DNA from: an uncultured Bacteroidales bacterium
GTDB taxonomy: Bacteria; Bacteroidota; Bacteroidia; Bacteroidales; Paludibacteraceae
DNA length: 60,893 bases
Assembly: GCA_902765485.1 (NCBI GenBank)
Contig: CACWZZ010000018.1
Span: 1 to 60,893, forward strand
Direction: 5' to 3'
Below the pieces are notes generated by a model. It did not search any database. It was not told where the DNA came from and saw only the letters and a program-made list of their open reading frames with translations. The position numbers and the translations under genes were made by a program. Positions 7,205 through 24,773 of the stretch are shown in pieces (position 1 is the first letter of the stretch; every line of letters begins with the position of its first letter).

Positions 7205-7510
7205 GTTTTTATTTATAAATCGAAAATGCGTCGGTTCGGCGCTTGATGCGCCTTTGTCTAATCGCCCAAAGTCGTTCCTTTGTGCAAGCACAATGCCCGC
7301 CTTTGTTCGCTTATACTCCGTCCGGCACCCAATAGTGCCGTACTACCGCCTTACAAAAATGCGCTTCGCTTACTAAAATACCAAAAATCCATGCGGCGCG
7401 AAGGGATTATAACGGCGAATTGCGCTAATTGAGCTAATGATTAATTCGCTTAATTCGTTTAATTAGCCGTTTTATTAATCTGTCCAATCTGCTCTATCTG
7501 TGGATTATAA
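7205..7510 (-). repeat. ~300 nt leader-type repeat, copy 1, directly 5' of the beta-helix gene
   Basis: Read on the minus strand, this matches 15487-15785 over most of its length. The shared first half begins ATCCACAGAT.GAGCAGATTG and includes an AACGGCTAATT/AATTAGCCGTT-type inverted repeat and AAGCGAAGCGCATTTTTGTA. The shared last part contains a GGCGC/GCGCC hairpin and ends GCATTTTCGATTTA. The middle differs between copies but keeps a CGGCA/TGCCG-type hairpin (loop different) and here has TTGTGC-TT-GCACAA. It ends 28 bases before the GTG start at 7176 and accounts for the 430-base gap. Confidence 0.8.
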
Positions 7511-15284: not shown

Positions 15285-15335
15285 TTTTGTGCGCTTTTTC
15301 GCGTACGGGAGAAAAGTTTAAAAAAACGAAAATGC

Positions 15336-15454
15336 GGCAAGACGGCTACTGATGTAGCCTAATGGATACCGGCTTTTGCCCTCTTGTGAGCAAGCTCCCG
15401 GAGTTCAAAAACCAATACCCATTCCGCACGACTTCAATAAGTCGTCCGTCTGCC
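15336..15454 (-). ncRNA. Cloverleaf-like structured element, copy 1
   Basis: Four stems in the common order. P1 is GGCAAGACGG with CCGTCTGCC. P2 is GGCTAC-TGAT-GTAGCC. P3 is 15361-15378 with 15406-15423. P4 is CGACTT-CAAT-AAGTCG. The apical core CTTGTGAGCAAGCTCC is shared with the other copies. Four C.A/A.C oppositions in P3 become G.U pairs on the minus strand, so the RNA is assigned to minus. No family was recognised. Confidence 0.65.
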
Positions 15455-15486
15455 TTACGAAAATAATAAAAAATAAGAAAAATTTA

Positions 15487-15785
15487 ATCCACAGATTGAG
15501 CAGATTGGACAGATTAATAAAACGGCTAATTAAACGAATTAAGCGAATTAATCATTAGCCCAATTAGCGCAATTAGCCGTTATAATCCCTTCGCGACGCA
15601 TGGTATTTTTGGTATTTTTGTAAGCGAAGCGCATTTTTGTAAGGCGGTAGTACGGCAAATTGATTGCCGGACGGAGCGGGTCAGCAGGGCGACAGGGCGA
15701 GGAGCTCGCTCATCGAACAGACGCACGGCAGGAACGCAATGGCGCATAGAGCGCCGAACCGCCGCATTTTCGATTTACTAATAAC
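15487..15785 (+). repeat. ~300 nt leader-type repeat, copy 2, directly 5' of the CPBP protease gene
   Basis: Plus-strand counterpart of 7205-7510 with the same conserved beginning and end and a divergent middle. Here the hairpins are CGGCA-AATTGAT-TGCCG and GCGAG-GA-GCTCGC. It ends about 15 bases before the ATG at 15800, so both copies point into a coding region. Confidence 0.8.
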
Positions 15786-15799
15786 AAAATTAATATAGT

Positions 15800-16801
15800 A
15801 TGAAACGGAAATTGATACAGATTCTGACGTGGTTGGGGGTGATGGCAGGCCTGACGCTGGTGGCGATGGGAATATGGATCATCGGATGGCGCGGAGAACA
15901 GAGTACGGAGAGTTTGAAATGGTTACAAATGTTGCAAACATGTGCAACATTTTTGCTACCGCCGCTGTTTTGCGCATGGCTGTGGGAGAGCGATCATAAG
16001 CCCTTCCGATGGCTGCAGATGGACCGCGGCGCGAGTTGGCAGATCTTCGCTATCGCTATAGCGACCATGGTATGCGCCATTCCTGCGATTAACCTGCTGG
16101 CGGATCTGAACAGCAGATTCTTAGACTGGTTATTGGCGAATAGTGACTGGTCCAGAGGGACGATCGAATGGATGAAAGCGCGGGAAGAGGAGGCAACGGT
16201 TCTGACGGAGCGGTTCTTGCAAGCAGACAGTTTGGGCGGATTGCTGGTCAATATCGGTTTGATGGCACTCCTGCCGGCTTTGGCGGAAGAGATGAGTTTC
16301 CGAGGGGTGCTGCAGGGGGTGATGAGCCGTCAGACGTCAGCCATCAGCCATCAGACGTCAGCCATCAGCAGTCAGCCGTCAGCCATCAGCCGTCAGAGGT
16401 CAGAAGTCAGCCATGCGGCTATATGGGTGACGGCTTTTATCTTCTCGGCTATACATGTGCAGTTTTATGGGTTTGTGCCACGGATGCTGATGGGCGCTAT
16501 GTTCGGCTACGTGCTGGCATGGACGGGTTCGCTATGGGTACCGATCGTCATGCACTTTGTTAACAACGGCGTTGCGGTGGTGAGCTATCAGATTTCAGCC
16601 GTCAGATGTCAGCCTTCAGATTTCAGCCGTCAGCCGTCAGAGGTCAGCAGTCAGATGTCAGCAGTCAGCCTTCAGCCTTCAGAAACGAGCATCGCCGACA
16701 CGATAGGTGCCGGCGATACATGGTGGGTGGGCTTGATCAGCCTTGCAGCCGTTTGCGGGTTGCTTTGGCTGATTCGAGTATTATCCTGTAATAGTAAATA
16801 A
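15800..16801 (+). CDS. CPBP-family intramembrane protease carrying two heptamer arrays
   Basis: 333 residues with an N-terminal membrane region and the CPBP (CAAX/bacteriocin-processing) motifs: EEMSFRG (E163, E164, R168), the FIFSAIHVQFYGF helix, and HFVNN. These residues form the glutamate/histidine active site inside the membrane. Family members process prenylated or other membrane proteins; the bacterial substrate here is unknown. Two repeat-encoded inserts interrupt it. One of 12 heptamers (about residues 176-204) lies between the EExxxR helix and the next helix; one of 14 (about residues 262-294) lies after the HFVNN helix. Both are in frame and sit in loops, so the enzyme may remain functional. 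It follows the copy-2 leader by 15 bases. Confidence 0.88.
   Translation: MKRKLIQILTWLGVMAGLTLVAMGIWIIGWRGEQSTESLKWLQMLQTCATFLLPPLFCAWLWESDHKPFRWLQMDRGASWQIFAIAIATMVCAIPAINLLADLNSRFLDWLLANSDWSRGTIEWMKAREEEATVLTERFLQADSLGGLLVNIGLMALLPALAEEMSFRGVLQGVMSRQTSAISHQTSAISSQPSAISRQRSEVSHAAIWVTAFIFSAIHVQFYGFVPRMLMGAMFGYVLAWTGSLWVPIVMHFVNNGVAVVSYQISAVRCQPSDFSRQPSEVSSQMSAVSLQPSETSIADTIGAGDTWWVGLISLAAVCGLLWLIRVLSCNSK
16327..16410 (+). repeat. NNNTCAG array inside the CPBP gene, 12 units
   Basis: 84 bases, 12 perfect-register heptamers, encoding SAISHQT/SAISSQP/SAISRQR-type heptapeptides in frame between the EExxxR helix and the next membrane helix. Confidence 0.97.
16585..16682 (+). repeat. NNNTCAG array inside the CPBP gene, 14 units
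   Basis: 98 bases, 14 heptamers (ctatcag, atttcag, ccgtcag, atgtcag, ccttcag and so on), read in frame as SAVRCQP/SDFSRQP/SEVSSQM-type peptide near the C-terminus. Confidence 0.97.
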
Positions 16802-16953
16802 ACAAAGATAAATCCTTTGAGTGCTTTTGAAGCGTTGCTTCTTGCATGCTTAGGAGCCAAAAACTCCTTGTGAACAAGCTCACAGATAGTTTTTGACTCC
16901 TAACCTTGCACTCTTACGAGTTAAGCACTCAAAGCAATAAACAGAAATAAAAA
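16797..16953 (-). ncRNA. Cloverleaf-like structured element, copy 2
   Basis: P1 CTTTGAGTGCTT (16815-16826) pairs perfectly with AAGCACTCAAAG (16923-16934). P2 is GAAGC-GTT-GCTTC. P3 pairs TTAGGAGCCAAAAACT with AGTTTTTGACTCCTAA (15 of 16; the exception is C.A) and carries TGTGA/TCACA inside. P4 is ACTC-TTAC-GAGT. It is flanked by ATAAACAAAGATAAA and ATAAACAGAAATAAA. It fills the gap between two convergent genes. Confidence 0.75.
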
Positions 16954-16997
16954 TATTGTCAAATCAAAGCGACACGCAGAAACACAATGTGTTTTGA

Positions 16998-17729
16998 TTA
17001 CATATCTGCGTCCACGAGGATACGGCCGCAGAACTCGCACGGAATAATACGCTTGCGGGTACGGATGTCCAACTGGCTCTGAGCAGGTATCTTGGCGTGG
17101 CAACCGCCGCAGGAGTCACGCTCGATCTTCACGACAGCCAGACCGTTGCGGGCATTCTTACGAATACGCTTGAAGGCGGTCAGCAGACGATCGTCGATCT
17201 TCTTCTCCAATTCACCGGCTTTGAGCACGAGTGCTTCGGTTTCCGCTTTGGTCTCCGCCAAGATCTGGTCAAGTTCCGAACGCTTCTGGTTCAGATCAAC
17301 GGTACGCTCCTCAATGTCCTTGATCGTTTTCGCTTTCTCTGCCTGACGCGCTTCCAGCTCCGCAGTATAGTGCTTGATTTTGCGCTGCGATGCTTCGATC
17401 TCCAGCTCCTGGTATTCGATCTCCTTGTTGAGATTATCGAACTCGCGGTTGTTGCGGACAGTGTTCTGCTGCTCGCGGTAACGGGAGATAGAGGCGTTGG
17501 CGTTCTCGGTGCGTACGCGGTGGTCCGAGATCTGGGTTTCGCACTCTTTGATGTCATTCTCGATATTGACGAGACGGGTCTTGAGACCTTCCACTTCGTC
17601 TGCCATATCCTTCACTTCCTGGGGCAGTTCGCCCGCGAGGGTACGTAGTTCGTCGATCTTGGAATCGACTTGTTGCAAATCATAGAGGACTTTGAGTTTC
17701 TCCTCGATTGTTAATTCTCTTTTTGCCAT
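16998..17729 (-). CDS. Coiled-coil C4 zinc-ribbon protein (DUF164/CdsZ-like)
   Basis: 243 residues. Residues ~10-190 form a long antiparallel coiled coil (Glu/Lys/Leu-rich heptads). The C-terminus is a C4 zinc ribbon with CGGCH and CEFCGR. This is the usual length and order for the family, found across bacteria and proposed to act as a chaperone or regulator; a firm function is not known. It is transcribed away from Nif3 and DUF5606, which lie upstream on the same strand, the common Bacteroidota arrangement Nif3 then zinc-ribbon protein. Confidence 0.9.
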   Translation of the reverse strand: MAKRELTIEEKLKVLYDLQQVDSKIDELRTLAGELPQEVKDMADEVEGLKTRLVNIENDIKECETQISDHRVRTENANASISRYREQQNTVRNNREFDNLNKEIEYQELEIEASQRKIKHYTAELEARQAEKAKTIKDIEERTVDLNQKRSELDQILAETKAETEALVLKAGELEKKIDDRLLTAFKRIRKNARNGLAVVKIERDSCGGCHAKIPAQSQLDIRTRKRIIPCEFCGRILVDADM

Positions 17730-17754
17730 ATCGCGCGAGCTATCCTCGTAAGCG

Positions 17755-17775
17755 CCATAAAACCCCGTTTTATGG
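17755..17775 (-). promoter_or_regulatory. Perfect 9-bp hairpin in the leader of the zinc-ribbon gene
   Basis: CCATAAAAC-CCC-GTTTTATGG lies 26 bases before the start codon. The surrounding 17730-17880 is G+C-rich and full of short inverted repeats, unlike the A/T-rich spacers elsewhere, and may be a structured 5' leader. No known riboswitch was recognised. Confidence 0.45.
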
Positions 17776-17909
17776 GTAGTTACTCGGATGCTCTCGCTCT
17801 TCGGTCCGCAAACGCTGCGCTGGTTTACGTCCCGAGGTTAGAGAGCGCCTCTTAGCTCGCAAAGAGGGATAAAGTTATTAATTATTTTTAGTTAGTATTC
17901 TATATTTTG

Positions 17910-18071
17910 TATATAAATTAAGATAAAAACCTCTGTCGTTTGTAAGCCCGATGGGCTCTTGTATCTTTGCTCGCTGTAGCGTCCTTGTGAGCAAGCTCCC
18001 ATGCCGCTCCATCAACCAAATCTACACTCCTGCGGAGTACAAAACGCCCGAGGCAATAAAAAGAAATAAAC
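17910..18071 (-). ncRNA. Cloverleaf-like structured element, copy 3 (divergent)
   Basis: Imperfect P1 (CCTC..CGTTTGT with ACAAAACG..GAGG). P2 GCCC-GAT-GGGC. A weak P3 holds the conserved CCTTGTGAGCAAGCTCCC apex. P4 ACTCC-TGC-GGAGT. The flanks ATAAATTAAGATAAA and ATAAAAAGAAATAAA match the other copies. It lies between Nif3 and the zinc-ribbon gene. Confidence 0.6.
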
Positions 18072-18186
18072 GTTTCCTCTCTTTCTGTTAGTCAAAAATT
18101 ATCAAAAATTTATTAAACGGCGAATTTCGCTAATTAAACGAATTTTTATTGGTTCACGAATTAAACAAATTAAACGAATATTTCTT

Positions 18187-18984
18187 TTAGTATATATGAA
18201 TGGGAGTGTGGTCTTTTTCGCTGATGTAGCAGGTGAGACCTTGGGGAGCAAGGGGGGCGAGGAGGTCACGGAAGATGTCACGGGCATGCTTCTCGCTGAC
18301 CCAATGGTCAATGTCCACAATCGCAATCCGACCATCCGCCTCCTGGAACTCATGATACTTCACATCCGCCGTCAAGTACACATCCGCGCCCTGCGCAATC
18401 GCTTCCGGAATAAACTCCGCTCCGCTGCCACCACAGAGAGCAACGGTTTGAATTGAAAATTGAAAGGTGAAAGGTGAAAGGTGAGGGAGGGAGTAGCGGA
18501 TGTACGTGGTGTCCAGGCGCGCGCGTACGTGTTTTAAAAAGGAGTCAAAGGGCATGGGTTCGGGCAAGGAACCGATGACACCTAAACCGACCTCTTGCCC
18601 GGAGGGCTGTAAGACACGATAGTCCTGAAGCCCCAAGATGTCCGCGAGGCGGGTGTTGATGCCGCCGGGGACAGAGTCGAGGGAGGTGTGCGCCGAATAG
18701 ATCGCTATATCGTGCTTGATCGCTTTCTCGACGATACGCGCCTGCGGCGTCTGACCGCAGACCTGCTTCAGACCATGAAACAATAAGGGATGATGAGAGA
18801 TGATCAATTGGCAACCGAGCATAATAGCTTCATCGACCACATCTGTTGTCACATCTGTGGTCAAGAGGACAGACTGAATGTCCCGTCCCGTGTCACCTAC
18901 CTGCATTCCCGAGTTATCCCAAGACTCCTGGGCACTCCGTGGCGCTACAGATTCTATGCTATCAATAATGCTTTTTAAAAGCAT
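18187..18984 (-). CDS. Nif3-like dinuclear metal-centre protein (DUF34/YbgI)
   Basis: 265 residues with the family landmarks 'WDNSGMQVG', 'ISHHPLLFHG' (metal-binding His pair), 'YSAHTSLDS' and the C-terminal 'DIDHWVSE' region. It is a cytosolic hexameric protein with a two-metal centre; proposed as a GTP cyclohydrolase-like or hydrolase enzyme, true substrate unsettled. A heptamer-derived insert encodes HLSPFTFQFSIQ just before the second metal-binding lobe ('TVALCGGSG'), at 18450-18485. Its ATG is created inside an NNNTCAG array read on the opposite strand (CTGAATG), and its upstream spacer is that array. At 265 residues it is within the normal size range. Confidence 0.9.
   Translation of the reverse strand: MLLKSIIDSIESVAPRSAQESWDNSGMQVGDTGRDIQSVLLTTDVTTDVVDEAIMLGCQLIISHHPLLFHGLKQVCGQTPQARIVEKAIKHDIAIYSAHTSLDSVPGGINTRLADILGLQDYRVLQPSGQEVGLGVIGSLPEPMPFDSFLKHVRARLDTTYIRYSLPHLSPFTFQFSIQTVALCGGSGAEFIPEAIAQGADVYLTADVKYHEFQEADGRIAIVDIDHWVSEKHARDIFRDLLAPLAPQGLTCYISEKDHTPIHIY
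18450..18485 (-). repeat. GGTGAAA-type heptamers inside the Nif3 gene
   Basis: Plus strand gaattga-aaattga-aaggtga-aaggtga-aaggtga-g, about five units. On the coding strand it reads TTTCACC repeats, encoding SPFTFQF; the other strand carries TGA stops. The orientation is therefore the readable one. Confidence 0.85.
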
Positions 18985-19066
18985 TCAGCGTTCAGCGTCC
19001 AAGCCTTCAGCTATCGGAAGTCAGCTGTCAGCCGTCAGAAGTCAGCCTTCAGCAATCAGCCTTCAG
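18982..19066 (+). repeat. NNNTCAG array forming the entire DUF5606-Nif3 spacer, about 12 units
   Basis: Degenerate but continuous heptamers. On the minus strand its first unit supplies the TGA stop of DUF5606 (19058-19056) and its last supplies the ATG of Nif3 (18984-18982). The 71-base gap contains nothing else. Confidence 0.9.
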
Positions 19067-19481
19067 ATTCTTCAGATTCTTCTTCGATCTTAAAGTCCGT
19101 GATTCCTGCGTTAATGAGGATGTTATACCATTGGATGAGTTTGCGGATGTCGGAAGGATAGACGCGGTCGCGGTCCCAGTTAGGGAGCACCTCGTCAAAC
19201 CAAGCCTGCAGCTCCGCATTGGAGGCCTTCTTCGGGTCAAGCGCAACGGGCTTGAGTCCCTCCTTCTTGCCGGCATTGGTGAGGACCTCGTGGAGGGCGA
19301 TGTCGTCCGCGTCGGTGAACATCGATACATCGCTGAGGGCAACGATCTTGTCGCGCGCATAAGTCGGCATACGCTTGCCGTCCACCAGACTCTCCACAAT
19401 CAGCATGTTATTGCCGCGACTAACCAAACGATACAAACCCGGCTTGCCGGTGATTGCCAGTATTTCCGTCAATTTTGTCAT
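19056..19481 (-). CDS. DUF5606 domain protein
   Basis: 141 residues, a small conserved Bacteroidota family recognised by its opening MTKLTEILAITGKPGLYRL, then 'LDPKKASNAELQAWFDEVLP' and the closing 'DIRKLIQWYNILI'. Function is unknown; it is probably cytosolic with no signal peptide. The C-terminus is acidic (EEESEESEG) and runs into an NNNTCAG array that provides the stop codon. It shares a divergent promoter region with the CNNM gene. Confidence 0.85.
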   Translation of the reverse strand: MTKLTEILAITGKPGLYRLVSRGNNMLIVESLVDGKRMPTYARDKIVALSDVSMFTDADDIALHEVLTNAGKKEGLKPVALDPKKASNAELQAWFDEVLPNWDRDRVYPSDIRKLIQWYNILINAGITDFKIEEESEESEG

Positions 19482-19512
19482 AAGTTTCCTGTTCTTTTTT
19501 CGAAATCGGCTG

Positions 19513-19560
19513 CAAAATTACAACAAAATTTGCATATGTGCAAGAAAAATTGTAATTTTG
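19513..19560. promoter_or_regulatory. Divergent promoters sharing one central -33 block
   Basis: A minus-strand TAATTTTG (19513-19520) faces DUF5606 and a plus-strand TAATTTTG (19553-19560) faces the CNNM gene. Between them lies TTGCATATGTGCAA, a near-palindrome that can serve as -33 element in both directions. Confidence 0.65.
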
Positions 19561-19578
19561 CAGCGTTTTTAGAAATAT

Positions 19579-20664
19579 ATGGGATTACTTTTGTTATTTT
19601 TACTCGGGTCGATGACGATCAGTTTCGTGTGCTCCGTGCTGGAGTCGGTTCTGATGAGTACCTCTCTGAGCTATATCAATCTACGTGAAGAAGAGGGCTA
19701 TGCGCCCGCTAAACTGATGAGCAGTTACAAGGAGAACACGGGTCGTCCTCTGGCGGCTATTCTGTCTCTGAATACGATAGCGAACACGATCGGTGCCGCG
19801 GGCGTGGGTTCACAAGCGACGATTCTCTTCGGCTCCAAATGGTTCGGACTCGTTTCCGCCGTCACTACGATCCTGATTCTCGTATTCTCGGAGATCATCC
19901 CGAAGCGCATCGGCACGACTCACTGGCGCGAGTTGATGGGTTTCACGGCGCGTATGATCCGCGTACTGATCATCGTGCTATACCCGTTTGTATGGCTGAT
20001 AGAGCTGATCACCCGCATGTTCCCCGACAAGGAAGACGAGCCATCGGTGAGCCGCGAGGAAGTGCTGTCAATGGTGAATGTGGGCGAAGAGGAAGGTGTG
20101 GTGGATGAGGACGAGAACAAGATCTTCTCTAATCTGATGCGTCTGGACAGCATCCATGCGTACGACGTGATGACGCCGCGCGTGGTAGCGAAGATCGCGC
20201 CGGAGAACATGACGCTTCGCGCTTATTACGATTCGGACGAATACGACCATTTCTCGCGTATTCCGCTGTACAAGCCCGAGTCGCCGGAGTATATCACGGG
20301 TTATATCCTGCGCAACGACGCGCTGGAGGATCTGACAGAAGATCATTTCCGCAAGACCTTAGGCAGTATCAAGCGACCGCTGCCGGCGTTCGACCAGGAT
20401 CTGACGCTCGGTACGATCTTCGACAGCATGCTGAAGCAGAAGAGCCAGATTGCGCAAGTGATCGACGAATATGGTATGTTCGTTGGCATCCTGACGCTGG
20501 AGGATATTATCGAGACTATCTTCGGTCTGGAGATCATCGACGAGAACGACACCGTGATCGACATGCAGCAGTATGCCCGCGAGCGTTGGGAGCAACGGCA
20601 GAAGAAATATATGAAGGTACCAAGTGACAAGGGACTAAGTGACAAGGGACAGGAAACAGAATAA
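19579..20664 (+). CDS. CNNM/CorC-type transporter, DUF21 plus CBS pair
   Basis: 361 residues: an N-terminal DUF21 membrane domain with four hydrophobic segments ('LSLNTIANTIGAAGVGSQA' and 'FSEIIPKRIG' are family signatures), then a CBS pair ('VMTPRVVAKI' and 'VIDEYGMFVGILTLEDIIETIFG'). It lacks the C-terminal CorC_HlyC domain seen in longer members. Proteins of this class transport or control Mg2+/other divalent cations; older databases call them hemolysins. The last residues (PSDKGLSDKGQ) come from a 15-base tandem repeat and are unlikely to be functional. Confidence 0.88.
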   Translation: MGLLLLFLLGSMTISFVCSVLESVLMSTSLSYINLREEEGYAPAKLMSSYKENTGRPLAAILSLNTIANTIGAAGVGSQATILFGSKWFGLVSAVTTILILVFSEIIPKRIGTTHWRELMGFTARMIRVLIIVLYPFVWLIELITRMFPDKEDEPSVSREEVLSMVNVGEEEGVVDEDENKIFSNLMRLDSIHAYDVMTPRVVAKIAPENMTLRAYYDSDEYDHFSRIPLYKPESPEYITGYILRNDALEDLTEDHFRKTLGSIKRPLPAFDQDLTLGTIFDSMLKQKSQIAQVIDEYGMFVGILTLEDIIETIFGLEIIDENDTVIDMQQYARERWEQRQKKYMKVPSDKGLSDKGQETE

Positions 20665-20674
20665 TTTTAAGAAC

Positions 20675-20831
20675 ATAAACATAGATAAACACTTTTAAAT
20701 GCTTTAAAGCTTTGCTTTTTGTGTACTTTGGTGCTAAAAACTCCTCGTGAGTAAACTCCCGGATAGTTTTTATCCCCAAAGCCCACACCCCGGAGGGGTA
20801 AAGCATTCAAAAGCAATAAACATAAATAAAA
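20675..20831 (-). ncRNA. Cloverleaf-like structured element, copy 4
   Basis: P1 CTTTTAAATGCTTT (20692-20705) pairs with AAAGCATTCAAAAG (20800-20813), one A.C opposition that becomes U.G on minus. P2 AAAGC-TTT-GCTTT. P3 CTTTGG...AAAAACT with AGTTTTT...CCAAAG. P4 ACCCC-GGA-GGGGT. The same arms as copy 2 with largely different bases, so pairing is conserved by compensatory change. Flanks are ATAAACATAGATAAA and ATAAACATAAATAAA. Confidence 0.75.
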
Positions 20832-20873
20832 TTTTTTCTTTCACCTAGGAAATTACTCGGAAGGAGGAAGAGA

Positions 20874-21356
20874 ATGAGGAAGAGAATGAGGAAGAAGAGC
20901 GACATACGGATACTGAACAAGAAAGCTAAGTTTGAATATATCATCCTGGACCGGTACACGGCAGGTATTCAATTATTCGGCACAGAGATCAAATCGATCC
21001 GCGAGGGTAAAGCTTCGCTGGTCGATTCATGGTGCGCGATAGAACACGGCGAGATATACGTCAAACAGATGCATATCGCTGAATACCGTTTTGGCAGTTA
21101 TGCCAACCACGAAGCCAAACGCGACCGCAAGCTGTTGCTGCAACGGCGCGAAATACGCAAACTGGAAAAAGCAACCAAGGACACCGGCAAGACCATTATT
21201 CCGCTGGTGCTTTTTATCAACGAGAAAGGGCTGGCGAAGATGGAGATTGCGCTCTGCCAAGGCAAGCACACGTATGACAAGCGGCAGAGCCTGCGTGAGG
21301 CAGACGACAAACGGCAAATGGCGGCTGTCAGCCGTCAGCTGTCAGCCATCAGATAG
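20874..21356 (+). CDS. smpB: SsrA-binding protein SmpB with array-derived tail
   Basis: 160 residues. The SmpB core is complete ('[24 protein letters not shown]', '[19 protein letters not shown]', '[21 protein letters not shown]'). SmpB binds tmRNA and takes it to stalled ribosomes for trans-translation. The basic C-terminal tail, which follows mRNA into the decoding centre in the family, ends in [11 protein letters not shown], encoded by an NNNTCAG array that also supplies the stop (TAG within cagatag). The N-terminus overlaps a 12-base repeat giving three candidate starts (MRKRMRKK); the first is listed, but the one at 20886 is as good. No ssrA gene is seen here. Confidence 0.93.
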
Positions 21357-21427
21357 CCGTCAGCTGTCAGCCATCAGATAGCCGTCAGCTGTCAGCCATT
21401 AGATAGCCGTCAGCTGTCAGCCATCAG
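21325..21427 (+). repeat. NNNTCAG array with a 25-base higher-order unit, at the smpB 3' end
   Basis: Heptamers ctgtcag, ccgtcag, ccatcag arranged as four copies of ccgtcag-ctgtcag-ccatcag joined by 'atag'. The first unit encodes the last SmpB residues; the linker TAG is the stop codon. Later copies are untranslated. Confidence 0.95.
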
Positions 21428-21461
21428 ATATTAGATGAAAGCAAACAATATATAATATAAT

Positions 21462-22997
21462 ATGAGTAAAGCATTATTGATGATTTTAGACGGCTGGGGC
21501 ATCGGTGACAAGAGCAAATCCGATGTGATCAGCTGCACGCCGACACCGCACTGGGATGCGCTGTTGGCCAAATACCCCCATTCGCAGTTACAGGCGAGCG
21601 GGGAGAATGTAGGTCTGCCGGACGGACAGATGGGTAACAGTGAGGTGGGACACCTGAATATCGGAGCGGGAAGAGTTGTTTATCAGGACTTGGTGAAGAT
21701 CAACCGCTCTATCCGCGACAATTCGATTATGCAGAACCCGGAGATTATTGCCGCTTACAAAGCCGCGCAGGCAGCAGGCAAGAAACTGCATATCATGGGT
21801 CTGTGCTCCACCGGCGGCGTACATAGTTCGCTGGACCACTTGTTTAAGTTGGTGGAGATCGCGAAAGAATACGGTGTGGCAGAGAAGACCTTCGTACACT
21901 GTTTCATGGACGGTCGTGACACCGATCCGCGTAGCGGCAAAGGTTTTGTAGCCGACCTGCAGAAAGTATGCGACGCAAACGGCGCACATATCGCTTCTAT
22001 CATCGGTCGTTTCTATGCGATGGACCGCGACAAGCGCTGGGAGCGCATCAAAGTGGCGTATGATCAGCTGGTGAACGGCGTTGGTCGTCAGGAGACCGAC
22101 ATGGTAGCCGCTGTGCAAGGTTGCTACGACCGCCATACGGAGGAGCATAAGGACACGGATGAGTTCATGGAGCCGCTGGTGAACGCGAATTGCGACGGAC
22201 GGATTGCCGAAGGCGATGTAGTGATTTTCTTCAACTACCGCAACGACCGCGCGAAAGAGATCACTATCGTTCTGACCCAGCAAGACATGCCGGAGCAAGG
22301 AATGAAGACTATTCCGGGGTTGCACTACTGCTGCATGACGCCGTACGACAGTTCGTTCCAAGGGCTGCATATCCTGTTCCCGAAAGAGAACGTGGAGAAC
22401 ACGTTAGGCGAGGTAGTAAGCCGGTTGGGCATGAAACAGCTGCGTATTGCGGAGACGGAGAAGTTCGCACACGTGACCTTCTTCTTCAACGGCGGTCGCG
22501 AGGCAGAATACCCGGGCGAGGAGCGAATACTGATTCCGAGTCCGAAAGTGCCGACGTACGACCTGAAGCCGGAGATGAGTGCTCCGGAAGTGACGGAAGC
22601 GCTGGTGGCAGCTATCAAGACCCAGAAATTCGACTATATCACCCTCAATTTCGCGAACGGCGACATGATCGGTCATACGGGTGTGTATGACGCTATCGTG
22701 AAAGCGGTGAAGTGCATCGACGAGTGCTCGCACAAGGTGATTGAGGCAGCGCTGGAGAACGGATATGAGATCATCGTCATTGCCGACCACGGCAACTGCG
22801 ACTATGCCATCAATCCGGACGGCACGCCTAATACGGCTCACTCGCTAAATCCGGTTCCGTTCGTGTATATCAGTAAGGATCACACGGACGCGCACGTGGA
22901 GGACGGTATCCTCGCGGACGTAGCTCCGTCGCTATGCCATATCATGGGCATCGAGCAGCCGAAGGAGATGACAGGAAGATGCCTAATTAAGGACTAA
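21462..22997 (+). CDS. gpmI: 2,3-bisphosphoglycerate-independent phosphoglycerate mutase
   Basis: 511 residues, the normal length for this Mn2+-dependent enzyme, which interconverts 3- and 2-phosphoglycerate in glycolysis. Visible motifs are [12 protein letters not shown] with the metal-binding Asp, '[15 protein letters not shown]' carrying the phosphoryl-accepting Ser, '[11 protein letters not shown]', and near the C-terminus 'NGDMIGHTG' and 'IADHGNCD', which supply metal ligands. It is cytosolic, starts at ATG after an A/T-rich leader, and its stop lies in the first of three ggactaa heptamers. The minus-strand open frames across it are shadows. Confidence 0.97.
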
Positions 22998-23014
22998 GGG
23001 ACTAAGGACTAAGG
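22991..23014 (+). repeat. GGACTAA heptamers at the gpmI stop
   Basis: ggactaa-g-ggactaa-ggactaa-ggac; the gpmI TAA stop is the end of the first unit. A third heptamer type behaving as a gene-end spacer. Confidence 0.8.
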
Positions 23015-23021
23015 ACAAAAA

Positions 23022-23050
23022 GAAAGCGGCGCGAAAGCGTCGCTTCTTTT
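23022..23050 (+). terminator. Intrinsic terminator after gpmI
   Basis: AAGCGGCGC-GAAA-GCGTCGCTT stem with one G.T pair and a GAAA loop, followed by CTTTTG. About 25 bases after the gpmI stop. Confidence 0.7.
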
Positions 23051-23090
23051 GTCGGTTTCGTTAGGAAACCGCTCGATGAGCAACAAGCGA

Positions 23091-23291
23091 TTACTCAGCA
23101 GCCGGAGCCTCAACAGGAGCCTCAGCAGGAGCCTCTGCGGGAGCCTCCTCAACAGCAGCGCTGTCTGCCTTTTGGCAGCAAGCAACACTGTCTTTGCAGC
23201 ACTCTTTCTCTGCGCATTTTTTGTCGCAGCACTTGTTGCCGCAGCTCATTGCAGCGAGTGCAACAGCTACGATAAGAAGCATTTTTTTCAT
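23091..23291 (-). CDS. Small Cys-rich lipoprotein-like protein
   Basis: 66 residues. The signal peptide MKKMLLIVAVALAAMSC ends in a lipobox-like AMSC. A Cys-rich core follows (CGNKCCDKKCAEKECC, later CC), then an AEAPAEAP tail made of an imperfect 12-base repeat. The Cys/Lys spacing suggests metal binding or disulphides; no family was recognised. It is a paralogue of the next gene upstream, with nearly the same signal peptide. Confidence 0.6.
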   Translation of the reverse strand: MKKMLLIVAVALAAMSCGNKCCDKKCAEKECCKDSVACCQKADSAAVEEAPAEAPAEAPVEAPAAE

Positions 23292-23339
23292 TGCTTAATA
23301 CAGTTTTTAGTAGTTTTTAGTTAATAGAGTTCCGAACAA

Positions 23340-23570
23340 TTATTTGTTCTTCTCAACCTCAGCAGCAACGTCCTCGCCGAGATCAACAGCGCGCTCGATC
23401 AGCGATTGCTCTTTAGCGGGCTCTTCAGCCTCAGCAGCCGGTTCAGCAGCCGGTTCAGCAACTACCTCAACAGCAGGAGCAGCCTCTTCAGCCTCAGCTT
23501 TCTCTGCCTCCTTGTTTGCGCAGCTGAGTGCAGCAAGAGCAACAGCTACGATAAGCATCATCTTTTTCAT
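23340..23570 (-). CDS. Small acidic lipoprotein-like protein, paralogue of 23091-23291
   Basis: 76 residues. The signal peptide MKKMMLIVAVALAALSC with lipobox ALSC is shared with its neighbour. The mature part is mostly Glu/Ala/Pro repeats, then a short amphipathic C-terminal segment (LIERAVDLGEDVAAEVEK). It lacks the Cys cluster, so the pair share export but not the presumed core. The promoter is a minus-strand TACTTTTG at 23646-23653. Function unknown. Confidence 0.6.
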   Translation of the reverse strand: MKKMMLIVAVALAALSCANKEAEKAEAEEAAPAVEVVAEPAAEPAAEAEEPAKEQSLIERAVDLGEDVAAEVEKNK

Positions 23571-23645
23571 AACTCAAAGAATTTTTTAAACATGTTTTTT
23601 GTTAATAAAGCCTTATTTTTTTCCGCCTTTTTGCGAAAAACGGCA

Positions 23646-23693
23646 CAAAAGTACTAACTTTTTTGCATATATCCAAAAAAAATTGTAATTTTG
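23646..23693. promoter_or_regulatory. Divergent promoters for the small lipoprotein and PASTA genes
   Basis: Minus-strand TACTTTTG at 23646-23653 and plus-strand TAATTTTG at 23686-23693, with TTTTGCATATATCC between. The arrangement mirrors 19513-19560. Confidence 0.6.
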
Positions 23694-23713
23694 CGCAATA
23701 ATTTGTGTTTTTT

Positions 23714-24532
23714 ATGAAGAAAATGGAGTTTTTTGATAAATCAGACCTGAAATTTATCGGTTGGAACATCGTCATTGCCATCGTTGTAGGTATTGGAATC
23801 TTAGTCGCTCTGATCGCTTATCTGCGTCGTTACACGGAGCACGGAGTGGAAGTAGATGTGATTGACGTCCGCGGTTTGGTGGTAGCGGAGGCTAATCCTC
23901 TGCTGGCGGATCAGGGTCTGCACCTGGTGGTAGTCGATTCAACGTATTCGGACAAAGTGCCGTTTGGCACGATTGTTGAGCAAGATCCTAAGCCGATGAG
24001 CCATGCCAAGCACGGACGCGCGGTCTATGTGACGATCAATGCGACGACGAAGCGCCAAGTGACGATGCCGAACTTGCAGGACATGAGTTACCGTCAGGCA
24101 GAGACGACGCTTCGCGGAATGGGTCTGGAGGTGGATTCGATATACGAATACGAGCCGTCCGAGTTCCGGGACCTGGTGCTGGACGTCCAGTGCAACGGAG
24201 TGAGTGTACAGCCGGGTGAGAAATTAGCGGTCGGCACGAAGGTGCGTCTGGTGGTCGGTTTCGGACGGGGTACCGAAGAAGTGGAAGTGCCTTCCGTCAT
24301 CGGTCTGACCCTTCAGGACGCGCGCAGTCTGCTGCTGAGCCGGCGGTTAACGATCGGCGCTGTGCATTACGACGAGCCGAGTGAAGAGGGCGTGACGCAA
24401 TACGTCTATCGGCAGACGCCGAGCGCCGGAGAGCGTCTGATTGAAGGCGAGACGGTTGCGCTGAGGCTGTCGGCGGACATCGAGAAAGCCGCGAGCGGAG
24501 GTGGTGCGCCGAGCGAGGAAGAATGGTTTTAG
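23714..24532 (+). CDS. Membrane-anchored PASTA domain protein
   Basis: 272 residues from the ATG at 23714 (a GTG three codons upstream is possible but lies near the promoter). One membrane helix (about residues 15-40) is followed by three PASTA repeats, the family fold that binds peptidoglycan or beta-lactam-like ligands ('DVRGLVVAEANPLLADQGL', 'MPNLQDMSYRQAETTLRGMG', 'VPSVIGLTLQDARSLL'). No kinase domain is present. In Bacteroidota this gene commonly sits just before an RluD-type synthase, as here. It probably faces the periplasm in the cell-wall context. A GAATTGA heptamer run follows the stop. Confidence 0.87.
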   Translation: MKKMEFFDKSDLKFIGWNIVIAIVVGIGILVALIAYLRRYTEHGVEVDVIDVRGLVVAEANPLLADQGLHLVVVDSTYSDKVPFGTIVEQDPKPMSHAKHGRAVYVTINATTKRQVTMPNLQDMSYRQAETTLRGMGLEVDSIYEYEPSEFRDLVLDVQCNGVSVQPGEKLAVGTKVRLVVGFGRGTEEVEVPSVIGLTLQDARSLLLSRRLTIGAVHYDEPSEEGVTQYVYRQTPSAGERLIEGETVALRLSADIEKAASGGGAPSEEEWF

Positions 24533-24534
24533 GG

Positions 24535-24559
24535 AATTGAGAATTGAGAATTGAGAATT
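24535..24559 (+). repeat. GAATTGA heptamers after the PASTA gene
   Basis: Three consecutive GAATTGA units and a partial fourth directly after the stop codon. Confidence 0.85.
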
Positions 24560-24564
24560 TTAAG

Positions 24565-24720
24565 TAAATAAACAAAGATAAAGACTTTGAGTGCTTTTGA
24601 AGCGTTGCTTCTTAAACAAACAGTCATCAAAACCTGCTTGTAAGCAAGCTTCCAGACAGATTTTGCTAACTATTTGTTTCTCTACGAGTAAAGCACTCAA
24701 AGCAATAAATAGAAATAAAA
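24565..24720 (-). ncRNA. Cloverleaf-like structured element, copy 5
   Basis: P1 CTTTGAGTGCTTT (24585-24597) with AAAGCACTCAAAG (24690-24702). P2 GAAGC-GTT-GCTTC. P3 AAACAAACAGTCATCAAAA with TTTTGCTAACTATTTGTTT (16 of 19; two of three exceptions are C.A). The apical arm is GCTTG-TAAG-CAAGC. P4 CTC-TAC-GAG. Flanks are ATAAACAAAGATAAA and ATAAATAGAAATAAA. P1 and P2 equal copy 2 while P3 is different in sequence but still pairs. Confidence 0.75.
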
Positions 24721-24773
24721 TTTTTATTGGTCCAAAATTACCAACAATTTGCATTGCTGACCAAATCAAAAAG

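Follow-up and report, generated by a model that had tools for sequence, protein, structure and literature searches.

The question raised by this locus is what a set of foldable spacers between ordinary bacterial genes might be: the traces of a new structural RNA, or something else. The locus is a stretch of 60,893 nucleotides (the window) from an uncultured bacterium of the Bacteroidales family Paludibacteraceae, and corresponds to contig CACWZZ010000018.1 of assembly GCA_902765485.1 (contig C18 of a 2.1 Mb draft genome that is 82.8% complete). The initial annotation, made from the sequence alone, described five spacers between positions 15,336 and 24,720 that share a closing stem (P1) and three arms (P2, P3 and P4), with matched changes in the stems and, in four of the five, ATAAA motifs in the flanks. 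The five structures, the quoted stem changes and the ATAAA flanks are indeed all present in the sequence.

We propose, with a probability of about 0.58, that these cloverleaves belong to two related families (A and B) of small, non-autonomous mobile DNA elements, in which the cloverleaf is kept as a DNA structure of the bottom strand. They constitute a new, so far genus-restricted pair of families of the type known as miniature inverted-repeat transposable elements (MITEs), with a branched fold. No description of them was found in the part of the literature that our search covered.

Two families with a shared plan

A covariance model for family A, seeded with seven copies from the window's own genome, finds four copies in the window, at 16797, 17912, 20674 and 24567. 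Three of them (16797, 20674 and 24567) were in the seed and are matched by construction, while the copy at 17912 lay outside the seed and was recovered with an E value of 1.0e-12; the model also recovers further copies elsewhere in the same genome. The remaining structure, placed at 15336 by the initial annotation and at 15323 by our models, matches family A at chance level (E 3.0, and E 1.06 in another search). It is a member of family B, which has a comparable three-arm layout and conserved ends of its own, and which is represented in the window by copies at 7217 and 15323 on the + strand and at 15632 on the - strand, all three included in the seed of the family-B model. The idea of five elements of one design thus holds for the general shape and fails for membership in one family, since four are family A and one is family B.

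Pairing is kept while sequence changes, as had been claimed from five copies. The family-A alignment contains 143 copies (135 of them distinct) and 45 base pairs, and is fitted to the model, which favours structure; in it the covariation score of the 135 distinct copies is 0.567 against 0.180 after shuffling, and 90.9% of cells are paired against 67.9%. Cells changed on both sides number 1237 against 327.5 in the shuffled alignment, 44 of the 45 pairs show at least one both-sided change (40.3 when shuffled), and shifting the partner by 1-3 columns reduces pairing to 39-47%. A smaller set of 43 matches (39 distinct), likewise aligned by fitting to the model, gives covariation scores of 0.439 and 0.179. 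The folding energies of single copies as DNA are more variable, with z scores of -6.66, -4.25 and -4.85 for three family-A copies and only -0.85 for the copy at 17912, and modest values of -2.89, -1.76 and -2.00 for the three family-B copies. One pair of the alignment (A4 columns 80 and 103) is a fixed T.G on the top strand that lies beside an internal mismatch below the apex; these two features together may be a mark for recognition by a protein.

The statement that the fold belongs to no known RNA family has also held. At the gathering threshold Rfam gives no match in the window, at a relaxed threshold it gives only matches far under the gathering scores, none of them credible, and a tRNA scan found no tRNA.

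Ends, target duplications and empty sites

A full-length family-A element is bounded by short, matching inverted ends (TAGTAGTGTTGCGATAATTTTAAG); the cloverleaf lies directly within the left one, and an AT-rich tail separates it from the right one. A scan for inverted ends lists 20 end pairs, 16 of which enclose a cloverleaf. These 16 complete copies measure 199-332 bp overall, which is shorter than any transposase gene. Fifteen of them are testable for target duplication (L051 begins at a contig end and was left out), and an exact 9-bp duplication flanks six (L079, L082, L084, L092, L111 and L112), with two more showing a 9-bp duplication with one mismatch (L083 and L127). A match to transposon ends or to an Rfam family was named in the initial annotation as contrary to its proposal; Rfam supplies none, while transposon ends are present in part of the copies, with inverted ends at 16 loci and duplications at 8 of 15.

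Comparison with relatives reveals sites with and without the element. The spacer next to smpB carries it in the window and, with changed stems, in RGIG4295, while RUG13776, which is 90-92% alike there, is without it. Conversely, the spacer 3' of gpmI is empty in the window and filled in both RGIG4295 and RUG13776, with the left end intact. These two spacers are therefore polymorphic for insertion. More broadly, 39 smpB loci were found in the genus and 30 examined, and the element is present in one, the window's own; for the PASTA locus 39 genomes matched, and 2 of the 30 loci examined carry the element (the window's own genome and G029). Some copies are plainly mobile, and MITE anatomy is demonstrated for a minority of copies.

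Two other arrangements were seen at element edges. In L251 (1501-1750; G000:C6 at about 49.3 kb), a transposon end of the right type lies next to a 65-bp unit, containing a TGTCGCATATTTGCGACA hairpin, that is present in three tandem copies. In two species, at L081 (4260-4300) and at the right edge of the L060 core, one and the same short stretch, CGCCAAGTGGGCACATAAAA, stands in place of the cloverleaf's right flank.

DNA or RNA

The mismatches tolerated within stems bear on whether the fold is one of RNA. Read from the + strand, with P4 and one fixed T.G pair omitted, family A has 36 G-U cells and 98 A-C cells among 4521, so that wobble pairs are the rarer class; over all 45 pairs the counts are 194 and 176 of 5951. 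P4 is omitted since slips of register in the fitted alignment produce spurious T.G and C.A cells there. Control RNAs behave differently: RNase P RNA of the same genus (30 of the 38 genomes where it was found) has 168 G-U and 13 A-C cells of 1690, and 11 tRNAs have 22 and 0 of 239. These counts speak against an RNA read from the + strand. The new structural RNA family that the initial annotation implied is opposed by them, by the ends and target duplications, and by the empty sites in relatives.

The loops are biased as well. Among 119 P2 triloops, 61 are TNC and one is GNA; among 82 P4 triloops, 60 are TNC and three are GNA; and the apex is CAAG in 75 of 124 copies. Viewed from the bottom strand, the loops become c(GNA)g triloops and g(CTTG)c, and most four-base P4 loops are of the GNNA type. 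Hairpins of this sort are treated in general terms in the available text of PMC10527192. The bias points to the bottom strand as the folding strand.

One might therefore consider a structured RNA encoded by the bottom strand, either a small RNA or an mRNA element, that was spread by a mobile element and whose pairing is selected in RNA. Strong covariation would be expected of it, and the same loops, among them g(CUUG)c and the GNRA type, are favoured in RNA too. With a neutral filter that treats both mismatch types alike, the - strand has 88 wobble and 34 A-C cells of 4387, a ratio like that of RNase P (30 and 11 of 1454). Against such an RNA, the 115 copies located outside long reading frames show no preference for gene strand, the flanking genes being (-,-) in 48 cases, (+,+) in 39, (+,-) in 15 and (-,+) in 13. 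Transcription of such an RNA would also oppose the direction of replication at about 80% of loci, given the usual leading-strand assignment (see below), the fixed top-strand T.G would become an A-C mismatch, and Rfam contains no match. We regard a bottom-strand RNA as unlikely; most likely the cloverleaf is a structure of DNA and not a new RNA gene. There is a warning in this: strong covariation is usually read as evidence of a functional RNA, and here it is found in a mobile DNA element whose loops and orientation fit a DNA fold.

Interiors that change at fixed sites

Six pairs of sites could be compared between genomes with both flanks matched, and in five of them the core differs more than the flanks do, in the sixth less. 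Between the window and RGIG4295, the smpB flanks are 97-98% alike and the cores 85%, with matched replacements in P2, P4, one P1 pair and one pair at the base of P3, and a few unmatched changes in P3. The difference is larger at rluD, where the window and RGIG4295 share 95-99% in the flanks and 67% in the core, and the window and RUG13776 share 93-97% and 62%. The other three pairs show little difference: RUG13776 and RGIG4295 at rluD (core 89%, flanks 93-96%), L104 and L128 (core 69%, flanks 75-77%), and L088 and L097 (core 91%, flanks 85-87%).

The difference can extend to the family itself. The spacer that holds the family-A copy 17912 in the window holds a family-B copy in the close relative RGIG4295, and at G000:C9:31 kb a family-B copy was seen by eye to lie inside the P1 stem of a family-A copy. 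The left remnants there and at gpmI in RUG13776 suggest that a family-B element inserted into a family-A copy and took the place of its interior. A simple core swap at the RUG13776 gpmI site was considered and dropped, in view of the left remnant at that site.

Could the fold have no function at all? A selfish palindromic repeat might have its arms kept complementary by replication template switching and by gene conversion between copies. Whole hairpins would then be replaced at fixed sites by multi-base, paired changes, as is seen, and template switching is a published source of compensatory changes in the accessible part of PMC8794818. In line with this, both-sided changes in family A far exceed one-sided ones (1014 and 26), the corresponding RNase P counts being 280 and 55. 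However, according to the available portion of PMC8604942, template switching would be expected to produce inverted loops as well, and few of these are seen (TTC 36 and GAA 0, TGC 16 and GCA 0, GAT 11 and ATC 0), the exception being TTT 19 and AAA 7. The fixed T.G pair beside a mismatch also suggests recognition by a protein. A functionless fold seems improbable on this evidence.

A further, rather doubtful scheme would make the elements a new kind of mobile DNA that folds as a single strand, with the bottom-strand cloverleaf itself as the substrate of a recombinase. This enzyme would insert the cloverleaf, set copies tail to tail and, at fixed sites, exchange single hairpins or a cloverleaf of one family for one of the other; the form with inverted ends would be just one vehicle among others.

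Orientation and neighbouring copies

The elements are oriented with respect to GC skew. Their + strand is the G-rich strand at 64 of 80 loci (p 6e-8), and at 57 of 72 once loci with shared sequence are counted as one (p 7e-7); the orientation is kept at 29 of the 41 loci where genes run the opposite way. Family B gives 16 of 20, from 20 of its 30 loci that were fetched, several of them in the same clusters. On the usual bacterial assignment of the leading strand to the G-rich one, the folding strand would lie on the leading-strand template.

Neighbouring copies 0.6-6 kb apart have the same orientation in 21 cases against 5. Family-A neighbours less than 400 bp apart are arranged differently, with 14 of 18 tail to tail, 4 of 18 in the same orientation and none head to head. 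Some tail-to-tail pairs (L080, L105, L141 and L145) share another outer boundary, approximately TTTCCCA..TCTTTGAAAGTA, without convincing target duplication. Dense clusters of family B, with several tail-to-tail pairs, occur at G007:C19 23675-27209 and G036:C16 7106-18003, and L132 (7103-8500; G029:C20) contains four directly repeated family-A copies in two close pairs, whose neighbours differ in loop and stem.

The like-oriented neighbours and the link to GC skew would also suit a folded single-strand recombination site, comparable to integron attC or to the ends of REP/IS200 elements and mobilised by a recombinase acting on single strands. According to the available text of PMC5371416, the attC strand that folds is carried by the leading-strand template in most sedentary integrons (25 of 30). 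A search with the Y1 transposase profile PF01797 gave matches at E<=0.001 in 16 of 41 genomes and over the cut-off in 12 of 41, including the element-bearing G018, G022 and G035. On the other side, the copy-rich draft genomes G000, G001, G002, G006 and G029 have no PF01797 match at E<=0.001, the spacers lie, by eye, between ordinary chromosomal genes rather than cassettes, and inverted ends with 9-bp duplications point to a DDE transposase; such a site is unlikely. Two relatives of this idea were rejected, a system of the REP/RAYT kind on the missing Y1 matches in those five genomes (though three element-bearing genomes have one), and an integron cassette array, hinted at by the same-orientation clusters, on gene content.

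A model for the elements, and points against it

In the model that we favour, a DDE-type transposase acting in trans would be the likely mover, because a 9-bp duplication flanks roughly half of the complete copies that could be tested. Most copies would be end-deleted remnants, left as cloverleaves in intergenic spacers. The cloverleaf would be kept as DNA on the bottom strand, with c(GNA)g, c(GNNA)g and g(CNNG)c loops. At about 80% of loci this is the C-rich strand, by convention the leading-strand template, which would be the strand least often single-stranded; copies in the opposite orientation may have been lost by replication-linked deletion or inserted less often. Exchange between copies would probably explain why interiors are replaced or re-paired while their sites stay the same.

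Several results weigh against this model, in addition to the - strand wobble count given above. Seven of the 15 testable complete copies have no target duplication (L006, L047, L055, L060, L087, L095 and L116), and a recognisable left end is found in only 28 of the 139 copies with enough flank. Tail-to-tail pairs have neither these inverted ends nor convincing duplications. Between filled and empty smpB sites about 75 further bases come and go with the element, and neither this comparison nor the one at gpmI gives a readable target duplication. An autonomous element or parent transposase was found neither by end pattern nor by tail DNA nor by the inverted-end scan, and no inverted end pair in the loci examined is more than 662 bp apart. 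Repeated insertion sequences often go missing from draft metagenome assemblies. Counted per copy, the skew bias is weaker (85 of 126), and it is not significant in end-bearing copies alone (15 of 23). The model also leans on two general rules: that the G-rich strand is the leading strand in most bacteria, and that c(GNA)g, c(GNNA)g and g(CNNG)c are unusually stable loops in DNA. Finally, a genome-wide search with one of the end types found it in 16 of 41 genomes, and this pattern is absent from the copy-rich G002, G006 and G018; our confidence is lower because of this absence and because of the Y1 matches in G018, G022 and G035.

If the DNA reading is true, the elements provide some 140 natural versions of a branched DNA fold aligned with GC skew, and the site-matched pairs with replaced stems could separate selection, template switching and gene conversion.

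Occurrence across genomes

Both families are patchy in occurrence. Matches to family A came from 22 of 61 genomes, every one a member of the window's genus, and from 25 of 41 genus members in a second draw. Family B, likewise seen in this genus alone, matched 14 of the 61 at E<=0.01 and 8 of them at E<=1e-6; some of its weakest matches are partial or are cross-matches to family A. Neither family was found in the 24 genomes of other families of the order. A pattern search of public genomes returned 50 stretches titled Bacteroidales or Paludibacteraceae, many of them by title from the rumen or another ruminant gut, so that the genus is apparently one of ruminant-gut Paludibacteraceae. Among viral contigs the pattern search for the cloverleaf found nothing, and the single match to an end pattern (L266) gave no inverted pair. 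A complete copy used as a BLAST query likewise had no match among plasmids and phages.

Of 140 copies, 118 could be placed relative to genes; three are inside long reading frames and 115 elsewhere. The genomes are drafts and copy numbers are lower bounds, likely so because contigs break at or in elements, as at the contig ends of G035:C4, G035:C24, G009:C11 and G023:C43, which fall inside or at the ends of elements.

The features of the window are collected in Table 1, with gene names (CPBP-protease-like, zinc-ribbon and so on) assigned by eye. Short repeats of the CAGCCGTCAGCCATCAG type occur inside and between genes of the window, at 16345-16410, 16596-16690 and 21320-21440, some of them within the CPBP-protease-like gene, and similar simple repeats adjoin several insertions.

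Table 1. Cloverleaf copies and related sites in the window
Feature	Positions	Strand	Evidence
Third family-B copy, outside the interval first described	7217..7361	+	Model E 2.3e-32 (in seed)
Family-B cloverleaf (fifth structure of the initial annotation)	15323..15465	+	Model E 2.2e-29 (in seed)
Family-B copy, tail to tail with 15323	15632..15776	-	Model E 1.3e-31 (in seed)
Family-A cloverleaf, between the CPBP-protease-like gene and a convergent zinc-ribbon gene	16797..16950	+	Model E 5.1e-25 (in seed); DNA fold z -6.66
Folded part of copy 16797	16815..16934	+	P1 16815-16826/16923-16934, P2 16829-16841, P3 16843-16910, P4 16911-16920
Family-A copy	17912..18069	+	Model E 1.0e-12 (not in seed); fold z -0.85
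Family-A copy, spacer between CBS-domain gene and smpB	20674..20829	+	Model match (in seed); locus comparison
Element-free site 3' of gpmI	22997..23014	.	RGIG4295 and RUG13776 carry the element here, left end intact
Family-A copy, between PASTA gene and rluD	24567..24718	+	Model match (in seed); locus comparison
Right-hand tail of the complete mobile form, left as a remnant adjoining the rluD start	24746..24772	+	DNA match E 4.4e-6

Comparison with known systems

Conservation of fold over sequence is familiar from integron attC sites, which are unbranched hairpins found together with an integrase and gene cassettes. The present families resemble attC in the first respect; form and gene context do not fit, since the fold is branched and the surroundings are ordinary chromosomal genes instead of a single unbranched hairpin between cassettes. 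REP and BIME sequences, and REPINs with their RAYT transposase, are likewise extragenic palindromes and inverted pairs; the families described here are far longer, and branched.

A close likeness in anatomy is to bacterial MITEs with palindromic cores, such as ERIC, Correia and QMITE2, and the BOX, RUP and SPRITE elements. Like these, families A and B are small, non-autonomous, intergenic and multi-copy, with inverted ends, short target repeats and stable folds. They differ in the branched three-arm cloverleaf, the covariation in nearly all pairs, the skew-linked orientation and the interiors that change at fixed sites, a distinction drawn by description only. The pneumococcal BOX, RUP and SPRITE elements also cluster and insert into one another, in the available part of PMC10969869. 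Another genus of the Bacteroidales contains the MITE BrickBuilt, in Porphyromonas gingivalis; judging from the accessible text of PMC4596501, and again by description only, it is set apart by carrying a minisatellite where the present families carry a cloverleaf.

A parallel from outside bacteria is provided by the GC clusters of yeast mitochondria, as described in the available text of PMC4478555. These are mitochondrial, their main type is 42 nt long, and their target site nucleotides number 2 nt, all of which distinguishes them from families A and B. They are nonetheless palindromic mobile DNA under structural constraint, with merger and shuffling and with stand-alone and merged forms at one site, and in these respects they are the same as the elements described here.

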